NCBI GenBank assembly: GCA_009746045.1
Contig: RPFO01000313.1
Location: forward strand, 184,001-248,000
Direction of reading: 5' to 3'
DNA from: Mesostigma viride
Lineage: Eukaryota > Streptophyta > Mesostigmatophyceae > Mesostigmatales > Mesostigmataceae
DNA: 64,000 nt
Shown here piece after piece: positions 3,775 to 63,995 of the stretch (within the stretch, counting starts at the first letter, position 1; every line of letters starts with the position of its first letter). The translations under genes and the position numbers were made by a program. The notes below the pieces were generated by a model. That model ran no database searches and was not told where the DNA came from. It saw only the letters and a program-made list of their open reading frames with translations.

Positions 3775-3850
3775 GGTTGATCTGGGTCTGGGTGTTGTCT
3801 CTGGGGTAGTCAGATGAATGTCTCTGCTCCTCAAATGCAGGGTAGGCATC

Positions 3851-3865
3851 AAACCTCCGATACCA
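3851..3865 (-). other. Primer binding site of the Copia element
   Basis: Directly after the 5' LTR end (TTCAACA) the minus strand reads TGGTATCGGAGGTTT. This is close to the TGGTATCAGAGC type complementary to initiator tRNA-Met used by most plant Copia elements. Confidence 0.8.
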
Positions 3866-11030: not shown

Positions 11031-11035
11031 CGGGG

Positions 11036-11478
11036 AGTTAATAAATGAGTGGACCTCTCAATGCTCAATGGCCTAACGCATGTGTTTATTACAATAAATC
11101 ACAAGCCCCGCACCCAACGTGCACAAGGGCATTTAGCATTGTCGACAAGCAACGCTCTGCCTGGCCGCCACGTCTGGAGCAGCCGACAGTGGCCGTTGGG
11201 CTCTGTGGTGCAGCCTGAGTGGCGCGACGCCACTGCTAGACTCTCAGGACCTTAGTCCAACGTCCGACACCTCAATGTCAGTCCCGAGTGGGTACTGGCG
11301 ACGCCGTACCGCCAATCCTACTTGGGTACTGGCGTCCGTCACCAGGACTCGGCTATCGAATAGTCTAGCCTGCCGAATCACATATAGCCGGGACTTCTGA
11401 CCGAGCCTACACGTGCGAAACCCCAGATAGCACATTGCTATCTGGTACTTAGCCTATGTCCACGACTAGAGGCTAACT
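11036..11478 (-). repeat. 3' LTR of the gag-IN-PR-RT-RH element
   Basis: It repeats 17902-18344 over 443 bp. The outer end is TAACT next to the duplication CGGGG; the inner end abuts the polypurine tract. Confidence 0.9.
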
Positions 11479-11515
11479 CCAGTTTTATTCTTTTTTTTTT
11501 TTTTTTTTTTTTTTT
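11479..11515 (-). other. Polypurine tract with 25-base A run
   Basis: On the element strand 25 A residues followed by GAATAAAACTGG run directly into the LTR start AGTTAGCC. Position and purine content fit the plus-strand primer. Confidence 0.6.
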
Positions 11516-11847: not shown

Positions 11848-14499
11848 TCATCCATTTGTCTGACTAGACAGATAGGGATTCATTGCATCACACAGAAGCT
11901 GGTACTGGGTTGCTGCTAATGACGGAATCTTGGTCAATGCGTCAGCCAGGTTCTCCTCGTCTGGCAGATGCTGCCAGCTGGAAAAATAGCTTGTTTCCTG
12001 TTTCAAAATCACCCAGTCCAGATCAGTATGCACAGCAGCAGTCACAGATTTCTTGTTAAGGAAACTAATGACTGACTGACTGTCAGTGTGTAAGTGAGCA
12101 TGCACATCAGCCTTGCTGCCAGCCTGAGTTTGCAACCAGGTTAGTATGTGCTGAAGGGATCGAGCATGCTGCACAGCAGACACCACAGCACGGCACTCAG
12201 CAGAGTTACTGCCAACAGCTTTTCTGCGATGCAATCTGCTGTACCACGACACCATGGACATATAGTCTCCCTTGTTGGTAAGGAAGAACACCCCAGCCTC
12301 CCTGGCATCCATTTTTGTTATTACCCTACTCTCCATGGAGCTGTCCATCAGACAGTTAATGTGAATATCTTCCATGAGGTTGAGTGGATGAATGACAAGG
12401 GAAGGTCCAGCCTTTAGTAGCTTCTGGAGATCCTTAGGTTTCATGGTTTGTAATACTGTGTCATCAATCCTGCTGACCACTGCCAGATGAGGTGCACAGA
12501 TAGCACTCAGCCACCCTAATTTTCCTTTGACAGTAGCACACATGTGAGCAGGAATGCACGGAATATCAAGCAGCTCTAGGCATTCTTCTAAGTACTGGGC
12601 AGGCGGGGATAGAGTACACACCCACTGTTCCTGTTGCTCTTCCAGTGCTAGCATTATGCCACAGAACTGTAGGGGTTCTGGCCCCAGCTCTGTCTGCTTT
12701 CCAATCTCATATGACTGCTGAACCTGCTGAATGAACTTGTCAACTTCAGCTCTTGGTCCACAAATCAGTTGGTCATCACCATGCCACACAAACAGGAGCA
12801 AGCCAGAGGGTGTGGGCACAGCAAAGAGACAAGGGTCCAGATCATCATAAGTGGCATTAAGTTTCTTGAACACCTCTTCTGCTGATTTTCTGAAGATAGT
12901 GGGAGCACTTTGCAAACCTTCCACCCCTAGATTTAGGAGTAGATATGGCTCATCAATATCATGTGCCCATGCAGCAGGGGTGGGAACCACATAGACCTGA
13001 CCCTTCCACACATCTTGCGCTTTATCAGGGTCCCCTCTAAGGAAAGCCCTTTTGATATCAGTAGCTTTGCAGGCATAATCTTGGCCAGCATTGAGATGGT
13101 GGAGGAAGACAGAGAGCAGTATCCTGAGGGATGTTTGCTGCAGCCCAGGAGTGTAGAGTTCACCCTTGGACAGTTTTGACATGCCTTTTAATTCTGTCAC
13201 ACATGGCCTAGCATGATATATAGGTGAGCCTACTGGCTGTGCCTTGTGTTTTAGCACAAACTTGAGTCTCAACTTTTTGGCACCTTCTGGAATTTCCCAG
13301 ACAGGAGTGACAGGTGGCTTATAGTCAGGATGCTTAGGGTTTGGCAGCACCCACTCTTCGCGGGCTTGGTGCCTAATGGCTTGGATCCATTTTTGAAACC
13401 CTTTTTGTGTTTTGCATTGTTGGATTAGAGCATCATAGTTGTGAGGAGAGTGCATGGCTAAGTCCCACTTTCCAACCCCAAAGGACTGCGGGTGTGGCCT
13501 TTGATTGTGCACCTTTTTCTCTAGGTCAGGGATTTCACCTGGCCCATATTTGATGTTAATGGCCTTGATATAGGCATCTAATCCATGAACCAGTTGGGAC
13601 AATGGAATCTTGTAGTGATCCAAGGGAATGGCTCCTACCCCAGTCACACGCAGCTGGCTAGCAGTGATGGTGACACCTGGGTAAGAGATAAAGGGTTCTC
13701 CCAACAAAGCATTGCCCATGTACCCTTCCACTACCTGGAAAGGTGTCTGGATGCCAAGTATGGGGATCATTACTTGACCCAACACATCTAAGGTTGTTTT
13801 GCCTGAAAAATCTTGCACCTGTGTCCATGGTGAGGGTGCAAGTTGCAGACCAGGAATGGCTTGTGCACTGATCACACTGACCTGTGCCTGAGTGTCCACA
13901 GCTAGGATGCAGGATTCCTGGCTATAATCGGAGCACACAGCAGAGACCTTGGCCAAACCTGAGGCTTGTTTAGCCTTGCTCTTGTGAGCCTTATGCAGAG
14001 CTGCCAGGGCTTTTTCTAGCTTGGATTTGAACTCAGCTGGATTGCCTTTGTTTTGCTCTGGTACCTCATGCCTGGTTGAACTCTGCCCAGAGGGACTTAC
14101 ACCAGGTTGTGGGGTGACACGTACCTCACTGAGGGGTGGAGGAATGACAGAGGGTGTGGTAGTGCCATCATCAGCTCCTGGTGTTGGAATGCTGGGTGGT
14201 TCTGCTTGCTCACCAGAGTTAAGGAGGGAATCCATGTTCAAGGACTCTTCCCCTGGCACGTCTGCCAAAGGAGGGAAATACTTCTTAACTCTATGACTGC
14301 TCACCCTGTGTTTTCTCCCTGTTTCCAAACTTCGAATATCCATATTTTTTCCTTTTTTGGTCATTCTTAGAACAGTGCACGGACCATACCACATGCCTGT
14401 CTTGCCATGTTTGGTTTCTTTGAAATATAGGACTTGTTCACCCAGTTGGAATACTGTTCTGGGGTGTGTTATGTCCTTTTCAGCTAGCTTATCAGCCAC
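11848..14499 (-). CDS. Pol part of the unusual LTR element: IN C-terminus, protease-like, RT, RNase H (about 883 aa)
   Basis: The first codon of the open frame is GTG, so this is a continuation of the upstream ORF rather than an independent gene. Residues about 1-75 are an integrase C-terminal domain (VFQLGEQVLYF ... HRVKKYFPP). At about 199 comes a retropepsin-like domain (AVDTQAQVSVIS ... NALLGEPF) in which the usual D-T/S-G-A reads D-T-Q-A. From about 410 a Copia-like RT follows (KLRLKFVLKHK, ATDIKRAFLRGD) with catalytic box WHGDDQL at about 570 in place of YVDD. From about 717 comes a Copia-like RNase H (MDSSMES, SAECRAVVSAV, HTDSQSVISFL, ADALTK). The frame is intact to the stop. The same order and variant motifs recur at 60532-63995. 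Confidence 0.85.
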   Translation of the reverse strand: MADKLAEKDITHPRTVFQLGEQVLYFKETKHGKTGMWYGPCTVLRMTKKGKNMDIRSLETGRKHRVSSHRVKKYFPPLADVPGEESLNMDSLLNSGEQAEPPSIPTPGADDGTTTPSVIPPPLSEVRVTPQPGVSPSGQSSTRHEVPEQNKGNPAEFKSKLEKALAALHKAHKSKAKQASGLAKVSAVCSDYSQESCILAVDTQAQVSVISAQAIPGLQLAPSPWTQVQDFSGKTTLDVLGQVMIPILGIQTPFQVVEGYMGNALLGEPFISYPGVTITASQLRVTGVGAIPLDHYKIPLSQLVHGLDAYIKAINIKYGPGEIPDLEKKVHNQRPHPQSFGVGKWDLAMHSPHNYDALIQQCKTQKGFQKWIQAIRHQAREEWVLPNPKHPDYKPPVTPVWEIPEGAKKLRLKFVLKHKAQPVGSPIYHARPCVTELKGMSKLSKGELYTPGLQQTSLRILLSVFLHHLNAGQDYACKATDIKRAFLRGDPDKAQDVWKGQVYVVPTPAAWAHDIDEPYLLLNLGVEGLQSAPTIFRKSAEEVFKKLNATYDDLDPCLFAVPTPSGLLLFVWHGDDQLICGPRAEVDKFIQQVQQSYEIGKQTELGPEPLQFCGIMLALEEQQEQWVCTLSPPAQYLEECLELLDIPCIPAHMCATVKGKLGWLSAICAPHLAVVSRIDDTVLQTMKPKDLQKLLKAGPSLVIHPLNLMEDIHINCLMDSSMESRVITKMDAREAGVFFLTNKGDYMSMVSWYSRLHRRKAVGSNSAECRAVVSAVQHARSLQHILTWLQTQAGSKADVHAHLHTDSQSVISFLNKKSVTAAVHTDLDWVILKQETSYFSSWQHLPDEENLADALTKIPSLAATQYQLLCDAMNPYLSSQTNG

Positions 14500-17400
14500 T
14501 TTAGCCTTACTGTGTTATACAGAGCTAATACCTCTGGAGGGTACACACCTGCCTGTAAGCCAATGGGAAGGATTTCCCCCCATGGTGCATGCAACACAGG
14601 TCTAAGGTTAAGTGTAGCACAGATTTCACTGCACCACAGTGCTCTGTCAGCATAGCTTCCAGATGTGGCTTTCAGGTCAGTGGATTTCGCCACTAAAGTT
14701 TTGACTGACCTGATGGTTCTTTCAATGACACCCTGCCCTTCATGATCTTGCAATCCAGCAATCTCAATATTAGCATCCCATCCTTCACACTCAGCCAGAC
14801 AGCTAAACTGTTGATCAAGCAGTATAGTGTCAACTGGGTAGAATCTGGGCAATGCTATCACAAGTGCTGCACGCAGTTGCTCTTTAGCCATTCCAGGTAG
14901 GGGTTCCATGACAGTGAATCTGGACCATGTGTCTTTTAGGATCAGATATTGTTCACCATCGATATGCACGACATCACCCACAATTATTCCCCTTTGGGTG
15001 GGTGGTGTTGCGACATGCCATTTGGGAGGTTTTGGGCCATGGAACTGACATTGCTGGCAGTGTTTTCTAGCCAACCTGACAGCATTCCTGAGTCGTGAAC
15101 CTCCTGCTCTTCTGGCAATCTTTTCTGCCACCACCTCATGACCCATGGCTATGTGGAGCTGGGTTGCTAGTTCCCTTAAGTCTACTGTGTCAACAGCAGC
15201 TGGGGTAAGAGCTTTGAGGTAGGGCAGTATCACATTATACGTGGAGGAGATTTTCTGAGCTGCCTCAAAATCTAGCAGTCCCTTGTCTTTATCCCCAATG
15301 ATAATGAGATCATATAAATCCACATAGGCGTGCTGTGAGGACGTACATCCTTTTGGAGCCTTGTCCTGCCGGTCGCACCACGTGCCGGGGGGCAGATGGC
15401 GGGGGTGCTTGCAACCGAAGCAGAGGTCCACGTCGCCTACTGCGGGGTTCCACTTGCAGTCCGCCCGCTGGTGTCCCTTGGTGCCACACCGGGTGCACTT
15501 GTTCTTGGGACCTGCATGGGGGGGCTGAGCAGTGGGTGCAGGGGTGGGTGGGGCAGGTGTGGGGGGGGTGGGCCGCCTCCACTGGTTTGGCTTGAGCTGA
15601 GCAGGCTGTCCCGGCTGGCCTTGGGGCTGGTTGCCCTTGGCCTTCTTGGACTGGCCGCCCTGCTGCCCCCCTAGCTGGCGCTTTTTTCCTTGCCCCTTCC
15701 CTTGGGTCTGTTGGACCTTGGGGGTTGGGGTTGCAGACGGAGCACCTATAGCCAGGGGAGTCAGGCAGTCTTGGATATGGTTCATCCCCGCCCGGAAATC
15801 GTTCCACAGAGGTTTGAGACCTGCAACCACAGTGGCGTACACAGCTTTGTCCAGGTTAGCATTTGACAACCATGAATACAGCAGGTAGCTAGCAGGCAGA
15901 CCCCTGAGATCAGGGTCCTTTTCTACAGCCAACCTATAATTCTTGCAATCAGTGGCATAGTCTTGCTTGTTGACCTGGTAAGCATTAAGCCAGTTGAAAC
16001 CACGGATGGATTCAAACTGTGTCCTATCCACCAGCAAGTGCTTAAGCTCATCCATGAAGGCTGGCCACAATGCAATTGCTAGGTTAGGTGTCCCAGCCTT
16101 TTCTTGGTAAATCTGGACCAAGGTTTTAATGGCTGGGGCTGACCTATGGATGGTGGTGGATGCACGCAAGGCACTGAACCAGTTCTGGACATTCAGAGAC
16201 TCAAAACAGTAGTTCAGGCTAAACAAAAATTCCTTGGCCTGTTCCTGGGTGTAACCCTCAGGTAAGCCAGGGATTTCTATTTTAGATTCTTTTTGTTTTG
16301 GGTTAAACGTACCTTTGACCGGGTCCTTCTTTTCAGCCAAGAAAGTCTTGACTGCTTGTTGAAGATCAGCCTCCTCCATGTTCGCCCTGCCCCTTTCCAG
16401 CTGGGAGATACTGGCCAGGAGGCCATCCAGCTGGGTGCGCGACAGGTCGTCCATGGGGTTGGTGGCCATGGTCTTGAGCTGTGCCGTGAGTATGGCAAGC
16501 AGCTCTTGGACGTCCCCCTTAAGGGTGGGTGGGGTTGGGTCCACTGGGGTCCCTTTTGCCACCGCCTTGCTCTTATCTGACTGCCCTGGTGTGGGTGCAG
16601 TCTGCTGGGCCTCCGCAGAAGGTGGTTGTGTTCCAGCTTGCTGTGCTAGTGCAGTGGCTGGTGGTGTTCCAGCTGCAGGCGCAGGGTCTTGTTCCCCTTG
16701 CCTTACTCCACTGCTGGTAGGAAAACCCTTGGCCTGGCCAAGCTGCTGCAGCGCTGCTGCTTGGGCTGCCAGGCCGCCCTCACGGGCTATCATGGCCTCT
16801 AGGAGTTTATTCTCCACCACCTTGCGGCGGTGGAGCTCCTGGGCATCCGGGTCACTTGGGGGTTTGCTGGGGGAGCTGGGGACAGTGCCCTGGCTCTTGC
16901 CCTGCAGCACCCTTGGTGACACGGCCCCTCCAACCACCCTTTGGCTCAAATCAGTGCCAGGGGTGGGGAGGGTATGTGCAGGGAGTGCAGGCGTTTCTGT
17001 TGCCTGCATCTTCTCCTGCAGCTTGGTCAGCTGCAACAGGAGGGAATTGAGTTGGTCCGCTGTTAGCGTGACCCCCTCGTCCCCCTGTGCAACAACCAGC
17101 TCATTGAAGAGGCGCTCATGGAGCACCTCTCCAGCTTGCATGGCAGCCAGCTGCTTTTCAGCAGTCATGTTGCGGGCCGCTGTCTTTTTGCGGTCCCGCT
17201 CTTGCTGTGCAAGACGGCGTGCCTCTACAAACTGGGCGGCGGCCTGTTCGACCGCCTGATTGAGTGGATTCATCTCAATCTCCCCATCAGAAACCCCTGG
17301 GGAGAGGGTGACCTCGTCATCAGACAGCTGAATGCTGCCGATGACGGGTCCTGGGACCTTCTTGGTCCGCATTTTGAACATGTATGCGTCCCTCTTCAGC

Positions 17401-17870
17401 TTCCTCTCGTACCCCCCCGCTTTCTGAGCGGATGAGGGGACGATCGGCACCCCCGCTTGTTCTCCACCGCTTTTGGCTATTCCGCCCTCCTCCTGAGGAG
17501 GTTGGGACGGTGCCTTAGCGGGGAGGTCAGCGGGGCTTGCCTGAGGGCTGGGGGACCGCATACTGCTTACGGATTTTTGCGAGCTAGCTGGGCTAGAAAA
17601 AACAGATTTTTCGGCCTGTTCGGCCAAGGAGGTTACCTGTTTTTGCAGGGCTGCCAGCTGCCGCTCTTGGGCGGCTGCCTTGACGCTTTGCTGAGCCATC
17701 GCTGTCGCTAGCTGCCTAGCCACTAGCTGTTCCTGCTCCGCCTGCGCCCTTCTTGCTTTTTTAATTTTCTTGGCCGCAGCCTTCTCCTCTACTGTTGGCA
17801 CCGTCTGCCAGCCAGCATCATCTATCCGCTTCTTTTTGAATTTCAGGCCTGGCATAATAGGATCTCCCAT
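14484..17870 (-). CDS. Gag-integrase polyprotein of the unusual LTR element (1128 aa)
   Basis: It starts MGDPIMPGLKFKKKR, 32 bases after the 5' LTR. The first 500 residues are long, charged and Gln/Ala/Pro-rich with coiled-coil character (KIKKARRAQAEQEQLVARQL). A gag core follows (about 545-700: EFLFSLNYCFESLNVQNWF ... WPAFMDELKHLLVD), then a basic Gln/Gly/Pro stretch and a CCHC knuckle (CTRCGTKGHQRADC, about 793). Integrase begins at about 900 with the H-H-C-C module (LHIAMGHEVV ... HCQQC), then the catalytic triad: D in VVHIDGE (about 967), D in ILLDQQF (about 1018), E in GVIERT (about 1048). No protease lies between knuckle and integrase. The ORF stops within the integrase; the rest is in the overlapping frame of the next ORF, offset by -1. 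Confidence 0.85.
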   Translation of the reverse strand: MGDPIMPGLKFKKKRIDDAGWQTVPTVEEKAAAKKIKKARRAQAEQEQLVARQLATAMAQQSVKAAAQERQLAALQKQVTSLAEQAEKSVFSSPASSQKSVSSMRSPSPQASPADLPAKAPSQPPQEEGGIAKSGGEQAGVPIVPSSAQKAGGYERKLKRDAYMFKMRTKKVPGPVIGSIQLSDDEVTLSPGVSDGEIEMNPLNQAVEQAAAQFVEARRLAQQERDRKKTAARNMTAEKQLAAMQAGEVLHERLFNELVVAQGDEGVTLTADQLNSLLLQLTKLQEKMQATETPALPAHTLPTPGTDLSQRVVGGAVSPRVLQGKSQGTVPSSPSKPPSDPDAQELHRRKVVENKLLEAMIAREGGLAAQAAALQQLGQAKGFPTSSGVRQGEQDPAPAAGTPPATALAQQAGTQPPSAEAQQTAPTPGQSDKSKAVAKGTPVDPTPPTLKGDVQELLAILTAQLKTMATNPMDDLSRTQLDGLLASISQLERGRANMEEADLQQAVKTFLAEKKDPVKGTFNPKQKESKIEIPGLPEGYTQEQAKEFLFSLNYCFESLNVQNWFSALRASTTIHRSAPAIKTLVQIYQEKAGTPNLAIALWPAFMDELKHLLVDRTQFESIRGFNWLNAYQVNKQDYATDCKNYRLAVEKDPDLRGLPASYLLYSWLSNANLDKAVYATVVAGLKPLWNDFRAGMNHIQDCLTPLAIGAPSATPTPKVQQTQGKGQGKKRQLGGQQGGQSKKAKGNQPQGQPGQPAQLKPNQWRRPTPPTPAPPTPAPTAQPPHAGPKNKCTRCGTKGHQRADCKWNPAVGDVDLCFGCKHPRHLPPGTWCDRQDKAPKGCTSSQHAYVDLYDLIIIGDKDKGLLDFEAAQKISSTYNVILPYLKALTPAAVDTVDLRELATQLHIAMGHEVVAEKIARRAGGSRLRNAVRLARKHCQQCQFHGPKPPKWHVATPPTQRGIIVGDVVHIDGEQYLILKDTWSRFTVMEPLPGMAKEQLRAALVIALPRFYPVDTILLDQQFSCLAECEGWDANIEIAGLQDHEGQGVIERTIRSVKTLVAKSTDLKATSGSYADRALWCSEICATLNLRPVLHAPWGEILPIGLQAGVYPPEVLALYNTVRLKWLIS

Positions 17871-17901
17871 GATTTTGTCTATGGTAAACGACTTTAATTC
17901 A

Positions 17902-18344
17902 AGTTAATAAACGAGTGGACCTCTCAATGCTCAATGGCCTAACGCATGTGTTTATTACAATAAATCACAAGCCCCGCACCCAACGTGCACAAGGGCATTT
18001 AGCATTGTCGACAAGCAACGCTCTGCCTGGCCGCCACGTCTGGAGCAGCCGACAGTGGCCGTTGGGCTCTGTGGTGCAGCCTGAGTGGCGCGACGCCACT
18101 GCTAGACTCTCAGGACCTTAGTCCAACGTCCGACACCTCAATGTCAGTCCCGAGTGGGTACTGGCGACGCCGTACCGCCAATCCTACTTGGGTACTGGCG
18201 TCCGTCACCAGGACTCGGCTATCGAATAGTCTAGCCTGCCGAATCACATATAGCCGGGACTTCTGACCGAGCCTACACGTGCGAAACCCCAGATAGCACA
18301 TTGCTATCTGGTACTTAGCCTATGTCCACGACTAGAGGCTAACT
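17902..18344 (-). repeat. 5' LTR of the gag-IN-PR-RT-RH element
   Basis: 443 bp, repeated at 11036-11478. On the element strand it runs AGTTAGCCTC...TTATTAACT. The sequence after it (TGAATTAAAGTCG) should be the primer binding site, but it does not match the initiator tRNA type. Confidence 0.9.
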
Positions 18345-18349
18345 CGGGG

Positions 18350-23535: not shown

Positions 23536-24936
23536 TTTTTGCGGGATAGCGGGATGGTTGCTGTCAACTGCCACTTCCAACGTCCCTCACAGGACTTGGT
23601 CACTTTTCGTGGCCCTAACGGCCATCAGGCCTGTTTGGACTACGTGGTGGTACGGCAGCCCAGGTGCACCTCGGTTCTGGACACCCGAGTTTTTGACACG
23701 CCCACGGTGTGCTCTGACCACCGGTTGGTGCGCGCGACCATTCGGCTCCGGTTCCACGTCCCCGCGCGCCGCGCCCCAGTGGTCCGCCCTGACTGGTCTG
23801 CTCTACGCCCGGTCCGGGGAGATCCTGAGGACTGGACGGACGCCGAGCACGAGCGGAACCGGTGCCGACGGGAGTACCTGTCGGCCCTGGGCGCCCGGGC
23901 GGACGTCGACGAGCTGGACAAGGGTGCCCCCGACGCCGCCATTTTTGCGGGTTTTGCGACCCGTGCCCCGCTGCTGGCAGCCCGGCACCTGCCGGCCATG
24001 CCCCGCCGCCGCCCCGGCCCGCTCTACCGCCAGGACCCCAAGGTCTTGGCCGCCCGGCACCGCCTCAAGCGTAACCAGGACCCGCTGAAGAAACCAGTGC
24101 TCAAGGCCGCCCTCGTGGAGGCCTACGAGCACGCTCAGGACGCGGAGGCGGCCCAGTGCATCGCGGATGCCAAGGCCTGCCAGGCTCGCAACCAGGGCAA
24201 GGACATGTGGTACCACCTCGACCGGCTCGGCGGCCGGCGGCAGCGCACCCCGGTGGAGCACACGGGGGACGGCACGGCGCCGGTCAGCCTTGACCGCTGG
24301 TTGGTGGCCCACAATGTTTCCTTGACCGGTGGGGCTCGCGCCCCCCCCCCGCCGCTTCACCCCGAGACGGCCGCCCGCCTCAGGGTTGCCGGACCCCCGG
24401 CGCCGCCGCCAGCGCCCCCCTCCTCGGCCGCGGACTACCAAGTCCCCGCCTTGCAGGAGGGCTGCCTTGCCACTGACGACGTCGTCCACCCCTTCACTTT
24501 GAAGGAATTGGACGGCGCCCTTGCTCGCCTGCGGTACGATGCGGCGGTCGGTGCCGACCACCTTTCTGCTGAGCTGCTGAAGACCCCTGATCCGGCGGTT
24601 AGGGATCTTCTGCTGGCATTCTGCAACCGTGTCCTGCTTTCTGACGAGCCTCCGCCTGCTGAGTGGCAGACGGCCATCCGCGTCATGCTGTACAAGAAGG
24701 GCTCTGCTGCTGACCCCGGTAACTACCGGGGTGTCTGCCTCCAGAGCGCCGCGCTGAAAGTCTTCATGCGCATGATGCTGCACAGGCTCCGCGCCGCGCT
24801 GGACCCACACCTGGGTGAGTCTCAGATGGGTTTCCGTCGTGGTCGTAACACTGTCATGGCTGTGTTTGTCGCGCGCCGGTTGATGGAGGAGGTGCGTCGC
24901 CTTCCCCCTGACAGTTTGCCGCTGGTCTTCATTTTG
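23536..24936 (+). pseudogene. LINE ORF2: endonuclease C-terminus and RT fingers/palm
   Basis: The opening (NCHFQRPSQDLVTFRGPNGH ... LDYVVVRQP ... CSDHRLVRATI) is the end of an APE-type endonuclease, with the SDH motif that nicks target DNA. After a linker the RT begins (ELDGALARLRYDAAVGADHL, WQTAIRVMLYKKG, PGNYRGVCLQ, GFRRGRNT). At about 24930-24936 a one-base shift moves the frame; the next piece reads VDYIKAFDTVLWEAL, the first catalytic Asp region. It is GC-rich compared with its flanks. Confidence 0.8.
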
Positions 24937-25231
24937 TTGACTATATCAAGGCCTTTGACACGGTCCTCTGGGAGGCTCTTTGGGCCATCCTAGCTCTGGA
25001 TCGAGTGCCACCTGCGTTTATTGCTGCCATTCGCCGACTGTATGAGGGCTCACAGGCAGTAGTTCCGACTGCGGAAGGCACCACCCCACCATTCCCCCTT
25101 CACCACGGGGTGTGGCAAGGTTGTGTCCTGTCCCCATACCTGTTCATTATTGTCGTGGATCACGTCATGCGCCGAGCACGTGCGCGCTTTACTGCTCTTA
25201 AGGGGTTCGAGCCAGGCTTGGACATCCTTAA
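24936..25231 (+). pseudogene. LINE RT middle segment up to the TTAA insertion
   Basis: It holds DYIKAFDTV (catalytic block A), an RRLYEGSQAVV segment, HHGVWQGCVLSPYLFIIVVD (block B) and ends in GFEPGLDIL at the TTAA. The reading frame continues at 26955 on the far side of the inserted element. Confidence 0.8.
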
Positions 25232-26950
25232 CACGTCGTTTGTAACCACACCTATTTTTAGGACTGAGTTCAACTCAGTCCTAATTTTAGGACTGAGTTT
25301 TAGGGTTTTGTAGAAAATTCACCCAAGTCAGAATGTTTGGCAAAAAAATTCTCTCAAAATTTATTCAAATACTACGTGAAAAGATCTTTCTGGGACATAT
25401 TTTTGCGATTTTTTTGGATTTGATTTGGACGGTCAAATGTACGGTCAAAGTACAGGTGGTAAGGGTACTTTTTCACGTGAAACGCGAGTTCCGGAAATGC
25501 TCGACCTAGCCATGGCGGCTTGCGCCCATGCACGCAGTTTACGTTTTGGGACGATATAGCTGGCCAAACTCAGGAAATAGATTTTATATATCCTAGAGAT
25601 GATACAAGTTAATTTTCAGCTCGCGGGGATGCGATTTACTAGGTGTCGGCACCGTTCTTGCTGGAAAAAGCTGTGATCAGGCAGGTCGACGGAATTGATT
25701 ACTACAACTGCTTTCCGGCGCAATTCGAAGGGTTTATAGGTTTCTTTCTACTTTTTATCATGCATGGTCATAGCATTGACTTAGTGGCAGTATAGATTTG
25801 ATGATTTCGACCACTCTGTCACGTCATGGTGTGTGTGCCGCAAAGTGCCACTTTTGCATGCACCGCCTGGGCCAAGGTAACGCCAGCCATGCCAGGTAAA
25901 GCCGGAATATCGTTGTCTCATCGTTTCTTGATGTTCGTACATGAGTTTAAGCTTGCGAGGTGTTGCCAGTTTCGAGTCTTGATGCTCTTTCTTGACCGTT
26001 GCCTGCCCCTCTCCAAAACCCCCTTTTTAGATGATGTTGCCAGGCATTTGCCTTGCCCTGGTGTAGTTGTGCAGGGTTTTAGGCGCTTAATGGGTGTAAA
26101 CACCTTCATAGATGTTAGTTATTCTTTTGCTACGTTCATACTGCATAATTGTGTGGCCATGGGCTTCGTCAAGGGTGCTTTCGAGCTTATATGGGTGAGT
26201 GAAAAATCTTGGAGGTAAACCACTGTCATCATGTGCCAGCAAGTATGTTGGCCATGCCATGGCCAGGAAAAACAGTTTTATCCATGTCCATTCTTGTTAG
26301 AGACACTTGAAATATGCTTAACCTGCCCAGTACATTGGTGGTTAACACACACAAAAAAACCTTTCGTGGGTAGGCATCCAAACCCATTCCCTACGTGCTT
26401 GCATAGGCTCTTGCACATTAGAAGGTATAATATAACTGCAATATGATGATGCAAGCATGTTGTCCTATTATGCTGGAAGGGAAATGAGCTGATTGGCATG
26501 GTTGGTGGCCACGGTGGTGTGTAGTACGACCGCACTCCCATGCTAGCATTTTGCTACCAAGGCCCAGTCCTATTTATAGGACTGGCAGTGTTTTGCATGT
26601 TTCAGGCAGTGCCAGTGGCCGAATTGAGTCCAGTTTTTTGCCACAGTTCAAGAACTCTATTATCTACATGCCTATGATTTTTAATAGTGAATATGGATTT
26701 TATTGGATTTTACACACTCGTGTTTCCACAGAAAATTTCAAAATCGCGAGTAAGGGTTGAGACTCATGTATAATTTTACATGATTTGGTCAACATATGAT
26801 TTTTTAAGCATATGCCCAAGCATTAGCATGATATTGAGTGCTATGATGCATATCAAACATATGGGGTACCCCCCCCCCCTTACCGCCACATGATCTCAAA
26901 GATGGTATACTCAGTCCTATTTTTAGGACTGAGTAATTACAAACGACGTG
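25232..26950. mobile_element. TTAA-flanked non-autonomous DNA element, copy 2 (1719 bp), inside LINE RT
   Basis: The ends are CACGTCGTTTGTAA and TTACAAACGACGTG, flanked by TTAA at 25228-25231 and 26951-26954. It has the same length and layout as copy 1 at 5896-7614, including ACTCAGTCCT/AGGACTGAGT hairpins near both ends and the CCATGGCGGCTTGCG block at about 25510. Removing it with one TTAA puts the RT frame back in register, so the ends are exact. It arrived after the LINE. Confidence 0.9.
25826..26218 (+). CDS. ORF shared by two copies of the TTAA element (130 aa, doubtful)
   Basis: Counterpart of 6489-6878, starting MVCVPQSATF and ending near SEKSWR. No domain is recognised. It is conserved in position and length, but substitutions look unconstrained by eye. 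Confidence 0.2.
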   Translation: MVCVPQSATFACTAWAKVTPAMPGKAGISLSHRFLMFVHEFKLARCCQFRVLMLFLDRCLPLSKTPFLDDVARHLPCPGVVVQGFRRLMGVNTFIDVSYSFATFILHNCVAMGFVKGAFELIWVSEKSWR

Positions 26951-26954
26951 TTAA

Positions 26955-27867: not shown

Positions 27868-28175
27868 GGTAGTTAGGATTTTTCTAGACTAGCTAGATTA
27901 GCGTTAGGTTAGTTCGATTACGCGGCTCTCCCCACTCCACCACCCATCAAGGAATATGTGCTACATGATCTCCCAACGGAGGCATGTTATAATTTAATTT
28001 AATTTAATTTTAATGGCGCACCAGCCACGAGCCAAGAGCCACGAGGTAGCCATGGCTGACGGCGGAGCTCATAACTTTCACGTTTGAGCACCAAATTTAG
28101 CCGTGAATATCACTATCGCTTCGTCTTTCTAAGACGCACATGCCGGTAGAATTTTCCGACTCTATTACGCAATAC

Positions 28176-48992: not shown

Positions 48993-50155
48993 GCATGCAT
49001 CTGCCAGCATAGCCCCTTGGGTATTGTCTAGCCCTTCCTTGGTTGAGACGTGCCTGGCAACATCATGGAAGGATATGGGGCTTTCAGTGGCAACATCGTG
49101 GAAGCTCATCCCCAAACTGTCAGGGGTGAGGGCTTAAGGGGTGAGAAGATCGCGTGCAGGAGGCATTTCAGAATCCTTGTACTCTACCCCTTTCATGGCA
49201 GCCACCATAGGCAATGAGAGACCCCGAGCAGCGACATCGAGGGAAAAATTATTCAATCGCATACAGCCAAACCCCGCTCGGGACAGCTGTGTGCTGCTCA
49301 CTGTAACCCCGGGTAGCGTCAAGAACGGCTGCCCTAATAAGGCGGGCCCATCATACCCCTCTACCACACACATGGGCGTGTCTGCGCCGAGTATGGTTAA
49401 TAAGGGAAATTCCCCCAGGACCTTGTAGGACCCTGACCTAGCAAAATCAGTGACCTGAGTCCAATGAGAGGGCAGCAAAGGAAAGTCTACACAATTGGCC
49501 CCGATAATAGAGACCTGGGCCTGGGTATCAATGAGGAGCCCACAATTCAGCGCCCTAGCGGTTAACAAGGAAGATATGACTGCAGTGCTCGGGCCCAGCT
49601 GAGGGGGGACGCCTGCAGTCTGTGGTGGGTTGCTCAGCAAGATTGTTCTAGGGCTGCGCCGGGACAATAACATGGGGTTAGTAGGCTCCCTTTGCCGCCC
49701 ACCACAGACTGCAGGCGTCCCCCCTCAGCTGGGCCCGAGCACTGCAGTCATCTCTTCCTTGTTAACCGCTAGGGCGCTGAATTGTGTGTGGTAGAGGGGT
49801 ATGATGGGCCCGCCTTATTAGGGCAGCCGTTCTTGACGCTACCCGGGGTTACAGTGAGCAGCACACAGCTGTCCCGAGCGGGGTTTGGCTGTATGCGATT
49901 GAAAAATTTTTCCCTCGATGTCGCTGCTCGGGGTCTCTCATTGCCTATGGTGGCTGCCATGAAAGGGGTAGAGTACAAGGATTCTGAATTGCCTCCTGCA
50001 CGCGATCTTCTCACCCCTAAAGCCCTCACCCCTGACAGTTTGGGGATTAGCTTCCACGATGTTGCCACTGAAAGCCCCATGTCCTTCATGATGTTGCCAG
50101 GCACGTCTCAACCGAGGAAGGGCTAGACAATACCCAAGGGGCTAGTATGCTGGCT
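48993..50155. repeat. Imperfect inverted repeat of protease-RT linker sequence
   Basis: The left arm (about 48993-49680, coding on minus) and right arm (about 49683-50155, coding on plus) are reverse complements, except that the right arm lacks about 160 bp (counterpart of about 49385-49545). Both encode the same protease-like segment. This is an inverted duplication with a deletion. Confidence 0.75.
49134..49673 (-). pseudogene. Protease-like fragment of the unusual LTR lineage
   Basis: LIDTQAQVSIIGANC, then FPLLTILGADTPMCVVEGYD and PALLGQPFLTLPGV match the protease-like domain at about 13900 and 61970. The DTQAQVS active-site variant is kept. There is no integrase or RT in this arm. Confidence 0.7.
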
Positions 50156-51980: not shown

Positions 51981-53505
51981 CTATGGCCGCCCGTGTAAGG
52001 GGTCCATGAGCCCACGGAGCAGGGGGTACTGCCGCTCCGCCTTCTCCTCCAGCTTGGTGAGGGCATCTGCAGGGTTATCCACACCAGGCACATGTTCAAT
52101 GTGAGCTAGGTAGGACATCTCCTTGAGCAACAAGTAGTCAAGGTCCCTGCTCCTGGCCAGCTGCCTGTGCACAAATTGCACCATGCCCATGCTATCAGTC
52201 CTCACCAGTGTGTGCAGCTGCAACCTACAGGAAGCCACTTGACATAGCTGGTAGAAGAGCTCCCTCAAGTAAAGAGCAGTATGCAGCCCTTCACAGATTG
52301 CCCTGCACTCAGCAATATCACTGCTGGGTGTAACCCTGTTCTGTAACCGACTGTACAAGGTAACAAGTGAGGTGTGATCTTGCTCCAGGGTAACTAATGC
52401 TGCTGCCCTGCCCCTGACCTCTGTGACCTTCCTATTGTCCATAGAACTGTCCACATAGAGGATCATGTCAAGGGGCTTGTACAAATCCACAGGACCCAGT
52501 ATAAGAGGGGGAGACATCATGACAGCCTGCACCACACTCTCAGCACCCACCTCAACTAGCTGGGAATCAGTAAGTCGACTCAATACCAGCAAGTCAGGGG
52601 CACATATACTTGCAAGCCATGCCAGCATGCCCCTGATGGTAGCACACATAGCCTGCGTGATGGGCTCCTGCAATGCGTCTACAATCTGTTGTGGATAGTC
52701 CTTACCACCCTCCATCTTGATGAACCACGAGCCCTTGGCTTGGAACAACGTAGCCTGCATGCCACAGAAGACCATAGGCTCATTCTCCACCATGTGCTGT
52801 ATCTTACCCAGCTCAAACCGCTTCTGGATCTTGGCCAAAACAGCCTCAACCCAGTCTGGTGGACCTATGAGATGCAGGTCATCACCATGCAGTGAGGCAA
52901 AGACAGGGAGGCCATTGTGGGACCCTTGGAACAAACAGGGATCCACTGGAGACACAGAAAACCCACAAGTATTCTTCAAGAATTTCTCTAGGCTCTTTCT
53001 CCAGATGATGGGACTGGACCTGAGACCTTCCAACCCTTTTAGAATTCTCAGGTACCTGGCCTTTATCTCTGCTCTCCATACAGCAGGTACAGTCACAAAG
53101 AAAGGATCGAGGGATATCTCTCCAAGTCTGCCTAGCCTGGTCCTGGTCACCCTTGAGAAAAGCCCTCTTGAAATCAATCAGCACAGAGCTATAGGGCACA
53201 CCCTTAACCAGGAAAGACAGAAATATACACAGCAGAATCCTCCACGTGTCATGCAGCATCCCTGGAGTATAGAGCTCCTCATCTAACAACTGGCCAGTGC
53301 CATGATACTCGGTTACAACTGGTCTGACATGTGGCACCTGGACACCATCTACCTCCTTGAGCTTGAGGACAAACATCAATCTGAGCAGCTGGTGAACTTC
53401 TGGCAGCTCATCCACAGGCTCTGCACAGTTGGAAACTATCCACTCATGCCCAGAAGCAACAAAGCCAAGAGTCCATGCCTTAGCCATCTTGGGGCTTTGC
53501 ATCAT
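51981..53505 (-). pseudogene. RT and RNase H of a third member of the unusual LTR lineage
   Basis: Two overlapping frames. 52882-53505 has the RT start (LLRLMFVLKLKEVDG, VLIDFKRAFLKGDQDQA). 51981-53177 has the rest (KGLEGLRSSPIIWRKSLEKF, LHGDDLHLIG, TIRGMLAWLASICAPDLLVL) and a Copia-like RNase H (ILYVDSSMDNRK, DIAECRAICEG, VRTDSMGMVQF, NPADALTK). The catalytic box is again HGDD. One frameshift lies near 53120. Nothing upstream of RT is preserved, so gag, integrase and protease are lost here. Confidence 0.75.
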
Positions 53506-54240: not shown

Positions 54241-56697
54241 ATGTCGAACGTTTCCGATAACGATTACTCTTCGGAGTCGAGCCTGTCGCCATCGTCCGAG
54301 GATTTGGACTACCGGGCGGCAGTGAGGGGCCGGCAGGGTAGGGGTGATCACGCTGGCAGCGATGCCGGCAGTGGTCGCTCGTCCTCGGACGAGGACCCGC
54401 GGTACCTCGACCAACTGGCGTTGAGACCGCCGACATACAATGTCTGGCGACCCAACGCGCCACCGGCTGAAGGGCAGCCCACGGCACCCGAGTTGATAAC
54501 TGGGCCGGGGAGGGTGGTGCCAGTTCTGGGGGATATCCCGTCGGATGGATACGACGAGGACGAAGACCTAGTCGATCTCGAGCTGCCTGAGGACAGGGAG
54601 CAGCGAGAGGAGCTGCTCCGCCGGGAGGCAGAGCGCCTTCGGCAGGAGGCCCAGCTCCGCAGAGAGCTGGAGCAGCAGCGCGAGCTGGAGGCTCAGCGCG
54701 AGGCTCTGAGCTGCGGGCGGAGAATGAGATAGACAGGACAGCCCGGGTGCTCGCGGAGCGGCAGCAGGAGCGGGATCGTGTGGCCAGGGCAGGCCTGCGC
54801 GCGGGACCGACAGGTGCGCGCGAGGCGCCCCCCTACGTGCTACGCAAGAAGAACGAGCTCTTCACCTTTGCTCACAGGCGCACAGCGCGCAACTTTCGGC
54901 GCATGGCAGGGGATGTGTTGCAGGAGACAGACTCCTCGGTTGAGATGCAGCCAGGAGCGCGGGGGGAGGAACTGGTTCTGATGGACCCGGCCATGGTCGA
55001 GGCCGAGAGACTGGCCAAGATCGAGTACACTCGGCATTGCCAGCGGAAGGCAAAGCGAGCGATGGTCCGGTCGATGGCAGAGAACAGCTTGGCTCGGGAG
55101 CGTGCAGCCAGGGAGGCGCAGCATCGGGAACTGCGCAGACTTCGGGCGAAGGCACACGACGCCACAGAGAAGACCCGGCGTCATCAGGCGCGTTTGGACG
55201 CAGCCATGAAGAGGTCGGAGGCGGCACTGGCTGTGATGGTGGGCCCGGCGAGGAGGGAGCAGGAGGCCAGGCTGGCGAGGAAGAGCAGGCGGAACGCACG
55301 TGCCCTAGACAGGCGCATGCGTAAGGAGGAGAGGGCTCTCCGCCGGTATCAGGAGGCGGCCAGGACCTGGGCTCTGCAGGGCGAATTCGGAGACGCCATC
55401 CGTTTTGAGCGTGGTCTGGCGCCACATGAACCGCTGCCCGAGGACGCGGTACTGGACTTCATGCGCACCCCACAGCCAGCAAGAGCCCAGCGAGGAGCGG
55501 CTTTGTTAACCGCGCGTGAGCGCGTACGTGCTGGTGCAGACACACCCCACACCCCACCCCCCACACCCAAAACCACTTTGCAGACCGACACGGACTTGGA
55601 ATTGGACCGCATCGCTGCACTACTCCACCAGGAGCTGGACGCAGCGGAGGCCAACCCGACCAAGCGGGCGCGGGCAGCAGAGGCAGTAGAGCAACTGCTG
55701 AGGGCCGCCAAGCGGGTACGCCAAGGAAAGGGACAGGCGGGGTGTGGACCATCGTCTACGCCCCAGCGGTCGCATCCAGAGGAGGATGGTGACGAGGGGA
55801 AGGACGGGGGAGCACCAGGGGGAGGGGCACCCTCAAGCACCGGGGGTATGGCGGGCGGCAGCAACGCTGGAGCGACAACCCAGCAGCAGCAGCAGCCACA
55901 GCATCAACAACAGCAGCAGCAGCAGCAGCAGCAGCGGCAGCACCGGCAACAGCAACCGCAGCAGCAGCCGCAGCAGCAGCAACCTCAACCACAAGCGGCT
56001 GTCGCTGTACCACAGCGACCCAGTTTTGATGCATCCCGTAGGGAAGATAGGATTACCTTCCCAGGTCTAGCTGAGGGGTTTGTGCAGGAGGATGCACTTG
56101 AGTTTCTTTTCAAGATAGAACATTCCTGGTCCCATGATAACATCCGTGATTGGTTTCCTGCTCTTAGGGTGTCTAACACGATCCACCAATCTGCACCTAG
56201 CATAAAACAAATGGTACAGATGTACGAGAGGAGGGCCAGCACACCTGGGGCAGAGGAGGTGCAAATCTTCACAGAATTCATAGCAGACCTAAAGGGGCTG
56301 TTGACCAAGGGGGAACACCTGCAGGCTCTCAAGGGGTTCAATTGGTTGGCCTCGTACAAAGTCAACAAGTCTGACTACGTACGTGACAACAAACAGTATG
56401 TCATGTACATAGACAGGGACGAGGAGTTGAAGAAACTCAACTCTAAGTACCTGATCCATCAGTGGCTCACCAAAGCTGAGTTGGACAAGAACACCAATGC
56501 AGTTCTGCTGGCTGCATGGCCTTAAAGACAAGTGGGATGATTTTAGGGGGGCCATGTTGTTCATTCAGCAGAGCCTAGAACCCTTCTCCACTGTCAAGGA
56601 ACCCAAGGTCAACAAGGTCCAAGGGGGGGGAGGTCAGGACGGTGCAGGTCCTAGCAGGAAGAAGCTCATTGTCCAAAAACCAAATGTCCTCATTTGA
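54241..56697 (+). pseudogene. Gag of the second unusual element (three frames)
   Basis: It starts MSNVSDNDYSSESS with an acidic, Ser-rich head, then a Glu/Arg/Gln coiled coil (LLRREAERLRQEAQLRRELE). A shift near 54712 leads to the frame 54747-56525: a basic region (RARAALDRRMRKEE-like), a polyGln tract (about 55880-56000), and the gag core (EDALEFLFKIEHSWSHDNIR, FIADLKGLLTKGEHLQALKG) that aligns with the gag core at about 16200 of the complete element. A further shift near 56510 gives GLKDKWDDFRGAMLFIQQ. It is then cut by the nested insertion. Confidence 0.7.
55880..56000 (+). repeat. CAG-type repeat coding polyglutamine in gag
   Basis: Runs of CAGCAG interrupted by CAA, CAT, CGG and CCG encode about 40 mostly Gln residues. 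Confidence 0.9.
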
Positions 56698-60131: not shown

Positions 60132-60563
60132 GTGGTAGCTCAGGTCAAGGCGGTGTTCAAGGGTCCCCAGCACGGTAAGAAGGCAGGGGGGTCATCCAAG
60201 CAGCAGGGGAAATCAGACAAGGGGGGAAAGGGGAACCCAGGCAGTAAGGCAGGGCCCTCCCAGGGGCCTAGTCAGAAAGGTAAGCCTCATGACTCCACCC
60301 TGTACTGCACCAGGTGCTCATGCAAGGGGCATGAGAGGGATGATTGCTGGAAGGGCAAACCCGAACTTGGATCTGATGTGGATGTGTGCCCAGGTTGCTG
60401 GGAGCCCCGCCACCCGTTACCTGCAGGGGGACGCTGCAACAAGCCCAGGAAGGGAGCCTCGACGGGGCGCCCCACAAAACAAGCCAGCACTCAGGACGAC
60501 TGTAAGTCTCCTGTACCCTGGTTTCTTAATGGCCGTGTACCCTATTTGCTCTGTGTTGCCTGA
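60132..60563 (+). pseudogene. Gag zinc knuckle region of the second unusual element
   Basis: A Lys/Gly/Gln-rich basic stretch followed by YCTRCSCKGHERDDC, a CCHC knuckle, and a second Cys/His patch (VCPGCWEPRHPLPAGGRCN) that also follows the knuckle in the complete element (LCFGCKHPRHLPPGTWC). It is in a frame different from the integrase that follows. Confidence 0.7.
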
Positions 60564-62928
60564 CAGTGAGGAAGTGGATTGGGACCTGGCTTATGACATG
60601 ACGTTAGCACAGGTGGCCCAAGATCCCACTATAGCCTCCTTAGATGCAGCAGCAGATAAGGTTATCTCCTATGCCAGGTTAGCCCAACAGCTACACAAGG
60701 CAATGGGGCATGAGGCAGTGGCAGAAAGGCTGGCCAACAAAATTGATGGCCGTGACCTGGAACAGATGTGCAGGCATGTCAGGAAGCACTGTGAAGCGTG
60801 CCAACTGCATGCACCTAAACCCAAGAGATGGCATGTGGCCACCCCACCACTGGCTAGAGGAAAGCTAGTAGGGGATGTGATACACGTGGTGAAGGACACG
60901 GTGTATTACTTGGTCCTAAAAGATGCCTGGTCTAGGTTTGTGGTGATAGAACCCTTGCCAGGCATGGCCAATGAACAACTGCACAGAGCCCTGCTGATTG
61001 CACTAGCACGGTATCATCCTCAGGAAAAATTAATGCTGGATCAGCAGTTCACGTGGATACAAGATTATCCTGATCTGCCCAAGATAGACATTGCTGGGGC
61101 TCAAGATCATGAACGCCAGGGGATGATTGAACGTACCATGCGTGCTATCAGGGACCTCATAAAGAAAAATGAGTCCAGGACAGCAGAGTCTGGGAGCTAT
61201 GCTGATAGGACAGCGTGGGCAGCTGAGGTGTGCAGAACTCTGAACACCAAGCCCCTCATGTCTTCTCCTTTTGGTGAAATCACATCAATTGGCCTGCAAT
61301 CAGGTAGCTACTCTCAGGAGGTACTAGACCACTACAACACGCAAAGGCAACACTTGGCCAAGTTGCTGGCAAAAAAGGATAAAAGTAATGCCAGGCCTGT
61401 GTTTGAAGTGGGGGATCAGGTACTCTACTATAGGGAGGGGGAAGGGAACAAAGCCCACTCTGGTAGATGGCATGGTCCAGCTGAAATCATCAGGTTGTCA
61501 GAAACAGGTGACACGGTGACTATTCAGCATCACAGAGAGCGAATGGTTGGCAAGCATAGACTGAAGCTTTATTACCCTCCTTTGGCAGACGTGTCAGGGG
61601 TAGAATTCTTGGACATGGATTCAGAGCCTCAGTCTGGTGGGTTGGTCTCACCCAGTGAACTGGCTAGGGACATAGCTGATGCAAGCAACACAACCATAGA
61701 CGCTCCTGTGTTCCTCAGTGGTGCAGCCCCACCACAGCCCACTGGTCCAACTGGGCAGGAGGAACGTGCACTGGATGAGCAGCAGGTCGCTCCTCCCTCA
61801 TCTCAGGAACAGCCACACGAAGCAGCAGATCCTGTTGTCCCCAGGAATAAATTTGCTGAGGCTCTAAAAGCTCTACATAGAGCACACACTGCCAAGGCAC
61901 AAATGGCAGCAGGTGCAGCACAAGTCAATGCTGTGGGTGAATCTAACCAGGATCCCAGTATTCTGGCAGTAGACACACAGGCACAGGTGAGCATCATCAG
62001 TGCACAAGCTGTATCTGGCCTAAGTCTGCAACGCTCGCCCTGGGCTAGAGTGTCAGATTTTTCAGGCAAAACAAAAATGGCAGTCAAAGGCCAAGTGCTA
62101 ATTCCCATTCTGGGTGTGCCCACTCCCTTCCAGGTAGTAGAGGGCTACAAGGGGAATGCACTGCTGGGGGAACCATTTGTCTCATACCCTGGAGTAGTCA
62201 TCTCAGCTGGGAGGTTGAGTGTGACTGGGGTGGGGCAGGTCACCCTGGACCATTTCAAAATTCCTTTAACACAGATCAGTGATGGCCTGGAAGCAGCCAT
62301 CAATGCTGTCAACATAAAATACCTCCCAGGTCAGGAACCCTGTGTTGATTCCCTCATTCATTCTCAGAAGCTACACCCCTCTGCGTTTGGGCTTGGTAGA
62401 TGGGACATAGCGTCCATGTCTCCCTTGTCCTATGATGATGTGGTCAAAGACTGTCAAACGCAGATTGGTTTTCTGAAATGGATGGAAGCCTTTAACAGGG
62501 CTAGAGAGGAATGGGTTTGTCCTGATCCACGTAGCAAGTCCCAGGTACCACCTGTAACACCGATTGAGGCACTGCCACAAGGGGCCAGAAAGCTCAGACT
62601 GAAGTTTGTCTGCAAGCATAAACCCCAGGCAGATGGGACACCTCCCATTTTTCATGCCAGACCTTGTGTCACGGAGTTCAGGGGCTCCACTGAGCTAACA
62701 GAGGCTGAACTGTATACCCCTGGTATTCAGCAGACGTCTCTTAAGGTCCTGTTGGCCACTTTCCTTCACCATCTGAATGCTGGTAAGGACTACGTGTGTA
62801 AAGCCACTGACATTAAACGAGCCTTCCTTAAAGGCAACCCTGACATAGCCCAAAAGGTGTGGAGGGGTCAAGTCTATGTGGTAACACTCCCAAAGTCTGG
62901 TCTGGGGACATCAAGGAACCTCATCTAA
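60532..62928 (+). pseudogene. Integrase, protease-like domain and RT start of the second unusual element
   Basis: One open frame covers three domains, so the order IN-PR-RT is continuous here. Integrase: QQLHKAMGHEAV ... HCEACQ (zinc module), VIHVVKDTVYYLVLKDAWSR (first acidic region; the Asp present in the complete element is Val-Lys here), LMLDQQF (second Asp), GMIERTMR (Glu). Integrase C-terminus: VFEVGDQVLYY ... HRLKLYYPP. Protease-like: AVDTQAQVSIIS ... NALLGEPF (61965-62180). RT: KLRLKFVCKHK, ATDIKRAFLKGN. A shift near 62884 ends the frame. The 5' start is arbitrary because the upstream gag is in another frame. Confidence 0.75.
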
Positions 62929-63995
62929 GGCCTAACTTGGGGGTAGAAGGGCTTCAGTCAGCACCTAAAATTTTTAGGCTGTCTGCCCAAGAGGTCTTCC
63001 TGAAGCTGGGGGCCCAGTATGATGATATTGACCCTTGTTTCTTCACCATCCCTCATCCTGCTGGTATGATGATGTTTGTGTGGCATGGGGATGATCAGCT
63101 CATTACTGGTCCCAGGGCAGCTGTGGAGGATTTCATTGCTCAAGTGTCTGCTAGCTTTGAATTAGGCAAGCAGCTGGAGCTGGGGAAAGATCCTGTCAAG
63201 TTCTGTGGCATCATTCTGAACCTGTTTAAGGAGCAGAAGGAGTGGGTGTGTTCTCTCAAAGCATCCCCTGAGTATGTCATGTCTTGCAAAGATGTTCTTC
63301 CCTCTGACATCACTCCTGATCTCTGTCCCACTATTAGGGGTAAGCTAGGTTGGCTGTGTGCCACTTGTGCTCCTCACCTGGCAGTGGTCAGCAGAGTGGA
63401 TGATGATGTCCTCATGGAGGTAGGGTCTAGGGCTATTAAACAGGTGTTGCATGATGGCCCTCCCCTTATTCTTCATGCCTTGGATCTGTTCCAACCCATC
63501 ACATCACATGCATGATGGACAGTTCCATGGAGTCACGGGTAGTCACTAAGGTACAAGCCAGAGAGGCAGGCTCTTTATGTTGTCTAACCCCACTGGCAAG
63601 CAATCTTTGGTTTCCTGGTTCAGCAGACTCCACAAGCGCAAGGCAGTCAGCAGCAATGTAGCTGAATGCCGTGCTGTGGTATCAGCTGTGTTGCATGCCA
63701 GGTACTTGAACCATCTGCTGGTGTGGTTGCAGCATCAGGCTGGTAGTTATGCTGGTGTCAAATCCATCTGCTGACTGACAGTCAATCCCTTCTCTCTTTC
63801 CTGGACAACCCCTTGGCTGTGCACACCGATTTGGACTGGATTGTCCTCAAGCAGGAGTGTACCTATCTGGAGTCCAAGACTCACATCCGAGACCCTGACA
63901 ATGCAGCAGATGCACTCACAAAAGTGCCACAGGCTGCAGGGCCTCAGTACAGAGTCCTATACACGCTGATGAACCCATATAACGGCAGAGGGTGA
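62859..63995 (+). pseudogene. RT C-terminal half and RNase H of the second unusual element
   Basis: Frames in order: 62859-63515 with LGVEGLQSAPKIFRLSAQEV and VWHGDDQLITGP (catalytic box), and TIRGKLGWLCATCAPHLAVV; about 63510-63774 with MDSSMESR, FSRLHKRKAVSSNVAECRAV; 63813-63995 with LDWIVLKQECTYLE and NAADALTKVPQ, ending at a natural stop, MNPYNGRG. RNase H is Copia-like. At least three shifts. Confidence 0.75.

Follow-up and report, generated by a model that had tools for sequence, protein, structure and literature searches.

The order of domains is routinely used to classify long terminal repeat (LTR) retroelements, and the locus analyzed here raises the question of whether an LTR retrotransposon can inherit an order in which the integrase (IN) precedes the protease (PR). 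The window is a stretch of 64,000 nucleotides from the streptophyte Mesostigma viride (assembly GCA_009746045.1, contig RPFO01000313.1, positions 184,001 to 248,000 of the forward strand), and contains a complete LTR retrotransposon, element 1, with an LTR pair, a target-site duplication and the order gag, CCHC zinc knuckle, IN, SH3-like domain, retropepsin-like domain, reverse transcriptase (RT) and RNase H (RH). An initial annotation made from the letters of the window had described a complete element with the order gag-IN-PR-RT-RH, and this is borne out by the LTRs, the target-site duplication and the placement of domains with tblastn. An undescribed lineage with this order is the best account of the patterns detected, and we consider it likely that the lineage is distinct and probably autonomous, with the retropepsin-like domain as the likely protease of its polyprotein.

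Element 1 is bounded by LTRs of 443 bp on the minus strand, the 5′ LTR at 17902..18344 and the 3′ LTR at 11036..11478, which differ by a single mismatch over 443 bp and are flanked by the duplication CGGGG at 18345..18349 and 11031..11035; such a near-identical pair with a short duplication identifies an LTR retrotransposon. The usual LTR termini are TG...CA. Those of family A, to which element 1 belongs, and of the related family B are instead AGTTA...TAACT, in element 1 (11036-11040 and 11474-11478) and in further copies. A leader of 31 nt (17871..17901, minus strand) runs from the 5′ LTR to the first ATG of open reading frame 1 (ORF1) and is the presumed primer-binding site. It begins TGAATTAAAG in family A, with TGAATT at its start, and TGAATTTTAT in family B, in neither case with TGG; the family A start is unlike the complement of a tRNA CCA end, so that the primer would be unlike an ordinary tRNA 3′ end. 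For family A, a check for self-priming gave no match of at least 8 nt. Near the 3′ LTR, a run of A on the element strand (11491..11515, minus strand) is the presumed polypurine tract.

The coding parts of element 1, all on the minus strand and with domains placed by tblastn with domain queries, are divided between ORF1 (14484..17870), which holds gag, the zinc knuckle and the integrase up to its core domain, and ORF2 (11848..14499), which holds the integrase C-terminus and the PR-like, RT and RNase H-like domains. This split is a frame break between the core and C-terminal domains of IN and is not present in some natural copies. A capsid-like gag region (CA, 15714..16301), conserved between families and without a Pfam match, is followed by the CCHC/nucleocapsid (NC) region found with tblastn (15348..15506), containing the CCHC zinc knuckle at 15456..15497 and a second Cys/His cluster after it at 15375-15422; the zf-CCHC match (E=0.2) is under the Pfam cut-off. 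The integrase (14505..15173) has its H-H residues at 15138-15158, C-C at 15048-15059, and the D, D and E of its catalytic triad within 14958-14978, 14805-14822 and 14715-14732, with 30 residues between the second Asp and the Glu by tblastn positions where 35 are usual. The IN piece of element 1 itself had no integrase match in Pfam and is identified by its 50–55% identity to the IN of a second element of the window, element 2, for which rve matched with E=2.7e-4, or 4.2e-5 on the IN piece alone, below the Pfam cut-off. Inside ORF2 come the SH3-like integrase end (14272..14451, GPY/F-like by eye), the retropepsin-like domain (13603..13953) with DTQAQ at 13882-13896 and NALLGEPF at 13690-13713, the Copia-like RT (12367..13365) with HGDDQ within 12769-12786, and the RNase H-like domain (11851..12366). 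RVT_2 matched ORF2 with E=3.9e-9, above the cut-off. The RNase H-like call is made because of position, a weak RVT_3 match in family D (E=0.26) and the motifs SNSAECRA, LHTDSQ and NLADALTK, which we take to be RNase H motifs. Within the expected set of gag, PR, RT, RH and IN, the RT is clear, IN is recognized through rve in element 2 and its residues, PR by weak homology, and RH by motifs and position.

The order recurs across the genome searched (440 Mb, 2243 contigs). With the PR of element 1 as query there were 4481 first-look candidates, and among the 150 scored 44 matched the full query without a difference, another 11 were 98–100% identical, and 95 at 77% made up family B. Of the 30 family A loci fetched, which include the window copy, 29 have IN-SH3-PR-RT together on a single strand (23 with NC-IN-SH3-PR-RT-RH, five likewise without RH inside the stretch, and one from IN onward), and the remaining locus has PR-RT-RH only. 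The whole order CA-NC-IN-SH3-PR-RT-RH was found in all seven of the longer loci from families A and B, which were chosen by frame length; an eighth, interrupted by a contig end, was excluded. The whole order sits in one frame of 2018 aa in both of the family A copies read. Seven of the 44 copies with identical PR have this frame, 10 have frames of an 888-aa class, as does the window copy, and 11 of a 1335-aa class; because these classes coexist among such copies, a programmed frameshift is not supported as a general means of linking ORF1 to ORF2. In one family B copy, a frame of 2063 aa runs from gag to a stop within RNase H, about 75 residues short of the family A end; a second copy reaches the full RNase H end, in a frame starting only before the knuckle. 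Complete LTR pairs with AGTTA...TAACT ends were present in five of eight self-compared loci, four of the five with matching 5-bp duplications and the fifth carrying two additional bases on one side and lacking a clear match; the other three were one partial LTR pair cut by the stretch and two loci without a pair.

Family C, that of element 2 (150 matches scored, with 81 identical PR copies and others at 96–99% and 86–87%), shares 51% identity with A and B in the part that they have in common and keeps the order in the window copy, which was the one read. Family D (104 matches scored, mostly at 98%) is 37% identical in RT and 45% in PR, with PR-RT-RH in eight of ten loci and RT-RH only in two. 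Upstream in one of its copies, gag and a knuckle in another frame are followed by IN (32% identical, E 3e-26) and an SH3-like part, and PR next to that upstream part was read in other copies; the C-C pair of this integrase is C-x-C, not C-x-x-C. An RT tree grouped A, B and D with support of 100/99 and, with eight rows, family C left out, long branches and a midpoint root, shows that grouping and no more. The order gag-IN-PR-RT-RH is real and inherited.

The domain between IN and RT was compared across five PR families, A to D and a fragment type, E, in the window. Profile gag-asp_proteas matched four of the five (best E 0.0052; E=0.0054 for the piece from element 1 and 0.0085 for that from element 2), covering profile positions 12-90 of 92 in A, 11-90 in D and 6-57 in C, and the sole other family listed was another aspartyl-protease model. 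The motifs named as canonical for clan AA in PMC2642776 are DT/SG and ILG. Asp-Thr is kept in all five families, LLG or ILG is likewise present in all five as the second motif, and 30 columns are invariant. The ratio of nonsynonymous to synonymous change (dN/dS) in PR was 0.09 (A/B) and 0.13 (A/C), compared with 0.08 in RT and 0.07 in RH (both A/B) and 0.47 in the gag N-terminus, values that are rough because they come from one copy per family with dS above 1; the PR-like domain looks to be under purifying selection. There was no D[ST]G in the frames read of families A, B, C and D and of element 1, and therefore no better protease candidate was seen. A protease hidden between the zinc knuckle and IN was considered and rejected, as the linkers of A, B and D (94–124 aa) lack D[ST]G and Pfam found no match in the linker, which sustains the earlier statement that no protease motif precedes the integrase. 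Pairwise comparison of these linkers with same-genome proteases gave z=0.7 at most, and only the missing D[ST]G and the absent Pfam match are counted because this test misses most true-looking pairs: applied to PR (n=20) it gave one z=3.8, for family C against one Copia protease, with the rest 2.0 or less, and for Copia against gypsy 0.9 or less. No protease candidate other than the retropepsin-like domain was seen, and this domain most likely cuts the polyprotein.

Several observations weigh against a distinct lineage with its own protease. Where retropepsins have the Gly of DTG, families A, B, C and E have Gln and family D has Asn. Every Pfam match of PR is under the curated cut-off, and the scan of whole ORF2 gave the unrelated PH_17 with E=0.025 against E=0.049 for the protease; a PDB sequence search with ORF2, PR and IN returned only chance matches (E 0.4 or more). 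The Pfam search that the initial annotation had proposed as a check succeeded for RVT_2, with rve and gag-asp_proteas remaining below cut-off and no RNase H model matching the RH piece of element 1. In the dN/dS analysis dS exceeded 1 or was saturated. Profile comparison of PR with gypsy and Copia proteases was negative, with all values under 2%, gypsy versus Copia included, and decides nothing because it missed that pair too. All of the evidence comes from one genome, and searches of viral and prokaryote collections found no relative.

These points may be read in more than one way. The domain could have a retropepsin fold and no proteolytic activity, serving as a structural or binding module with the polyprotein cut by a host protease or left uncut, and both the replaced glycine and the lack of any other D[ST]G in the frames that were read speak for this. 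We consider this rather unlikely, since Asp-Thr and LLG/ILG have been kept at the low dN/dS seen and since the same-genome Copia proteases also vary at the glycine site, with DSA in two of the three fetched (L047, L048) and DTG in one (L049). A Copia frame within the window (1705-3852, minus strand) likewise has DSA where DSG is expected. If the domain were not a retropepsin at all, the lineage would be without its own protease and the match at DTQAQ a coincidence, consistent with the sub-threshold Pfam scores and the PDB result; this seems very improbable given that scans of five PR pieces gave two families only, both aspartyl proteases, that the profile is covered to the extent described, and that the domain directly precedes RT and has LLG or ILG after DTQAQ. 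The several broken, interleaved elements in the window could suggest an ordinary Copia or gypsy element whose parts were shuffled, either by rearrangement or in assembly, but the order is common to many copies on different contigs with their own duplications and to further families, and single open frames carry it in family A. Rearrangement or misassembly was rejected because the order repeats in independent copies, its chance being negligible, and the earlier assertion that the order is no artefact of rearrangement holds up in the 29 family A loci and the seven longer loci described above.

In the favored account of a lineage with its own retropepsin-like protease, a single transcript would extend from LTR to LTR and its Gag-Pol polyprotein would assemble particles. 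The retropepsin-like domain between IN and RT would cut the polyprotein, with Gln or Asn in place of Gly after Asp-Thr; reverse transcription would proceed through a Copia-type RT and RNase H, and the D-D-E integrase would insert the element to give the 5-bp duplications. What the data show directly are the LTRs and duplications, the order of the domains with their conservation and constraint, and the kinship of the RT, while the working of the PR-like domain as a protease, RNase H activity, priming and the formation of particles are inferred.

The kinship of the domains was assessed by profile comparison with references from the same genome (3–5 sequences per side, except two for gypsy RT and one for gypsy PR). 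Against the Copia RT profile the new RT scored 96.5% (E 1e-9), and against gypsy RT 0.09%, with Copia versus gypsy RT at 0.3%; RVT_1 had no match in the Pfam scan of ORF2. By these profiles the RT is Copia-related. The new IN scored 18.8% against gypsy IN (E 1.3e-3, 172 columns) and 0.2% against Copia IN, the latter represented by three Copia families of one genome, whereas gypsy and Copia IN of the same genome scored 93% against each other. The integrase thus appears neither clearly Copia nor clearly gypsy, being weakly gypsy-like with a GPY/F-like SH3 end. As controls, three of three same-genome Copias showed Pol_BBD, gag_pre-integrs, rve, SH3_retrovirus and RVT_2 in that order in Pfam, where Pol_BBD, a beta-barrel domain, is taken as the Copia protease because of its DSA/DTG motif, and one same-genome gypsy read by eye was PR-RT-RH-IN. 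According to the initial annotation, the lineage would be related to Copia, its protease having moved or been acquired anew. The relationship of the RT stands, but the idea of a Copia element with a relocated protease oversimplifies, since the IN is not detectably Copia-like and is weakly gypsy-like; a gypsy-like or source-unassigned IN and PR could as well have been joined to a Copia-like RT and RH. More tentatively, and somewhat short of an even chance, the elements may constitute a family-level branch of their own among LTR retroelements, with an IN that branched off ahead of the split between gypsy and Copia integrases or comes from an unsampled source, an RT/RH sister to that of Copia, and an Asp-Thr-Gln/Asn protease, the order IN-PR-RT-RH having been kept since the families diverged.

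Other parts of the window hold further copies. Element 2, on the plus strand, has a zinc-knuckle frame at 60132..60563 and a single frame at 60289..62928 with IN (60679-61347), SH3 (61402-61578), PR (61921-62265) and the start of RT (62500-62898), and the rest of RT and RNase H follow in other, decayed frames (62886..63980). The claim that IN, PR and RT share one uninterrupted frame therefore applies to IN, PR and the first part of RT; RT continues in another frame and RH is split into three pieces. A capsid-like gag part (56037..56610, plus strand), 3.7 kb upstream of the element 2 knuckle, probably belongs to the same element. The window copy of family D is truncated to RT and an RNase H-like part, 34–43% identical (51999..53445, minus strand). 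The diverged PR-like fragment of type E, with DTQAQ, lies at 49239..49547 (minus strand) and has an inverted partial copy at 49788..49916 (plus strand); the region 49010-50144 contains an inverted duplication (363 bp, 98%) with diverged PR-like fragments on both strands. By eye, frames at 23539-27867 look like a non-LTR retrotransposon in pieces with RT-like sequence, and plus-strand frames at 28140-29144 and 45985-47358 have similar starts (SKRPSTQRS) and are probably one repeat family. A minus-strand frame at 37538-39331 has an apparent RNA-recognition motif and an Arg-Asp/Glu-rich tail, presumably resembling the splicing factor RBM25.

An abundant, multi-family and constrained lineage of this kind would imply that pol order is more flexible than the sorting criterion assumes. 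Surveys may drop unexpected orders as errors (Neumann et al.), and PMC6317226 reports that elements of unexpected order were removed. The lineage also offers a test case for how the pol genes of gypsy, Copia and retroviruses were assembled, and for the question whether the active-site glycine is dispensable to a retropepsin. No description of an IN-before-PR order was found in searches of PMC, which did not extend to subscription papers or Repbase, and no PMC paper matched order strings such as IN-PR-RT or gag-IN-PR.

Compared with known systems, the new elements resemble Ty1/Copia in an RT that matches RVT_2 and same-genome Copia RT profiles, an RNase H-like part straight after RT, a 5-bp duplication, and IN before RT. 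They differ in that PR comes after IN and not in the Copia order gag-PR-IN-RT-RH, that Pol_BBD, gag_pre-integrs and SH3_retrovirus have no Pfam match, that the IN is not confidently alignable to Copia IN, that the LTRs end in AGTTA/TAACT, and that the RT has HGDD where the Copias of this genome have HVDD. With Ty3/Gypsy they share a retropepsin-like domain straight before RT-RH and a weakly similar integrase with a GPY/F-like SH3 end, but IN stands in front and not last as in gag-PR-RT-RH-IN, and the RT is not recognizably of gypsy type. Gmr1-like elements reportedly have a Copia-like order with PR first. These gypsy elements are noted in PMC2774666 as a known exception with the integrase unusually placed in pol (Goodwin and Poulter 2002, cited therein), and differ from the new elements in having a gypsy RT, whereas here PR follows IN and the RT is Copia-like. 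Among recently proposed deep lineages of LTR elements, Troyka is reported with a gypsy/BEL order and Kuafuorterviridae are listed as protease, RT, RNase H, integrase in PMC11673190 and PMC12440569, both differing from the order found here. The pol of this lineage is a different assembly from that of other LTR retrotransposons, although its mode of action is most likely the same as theirs.

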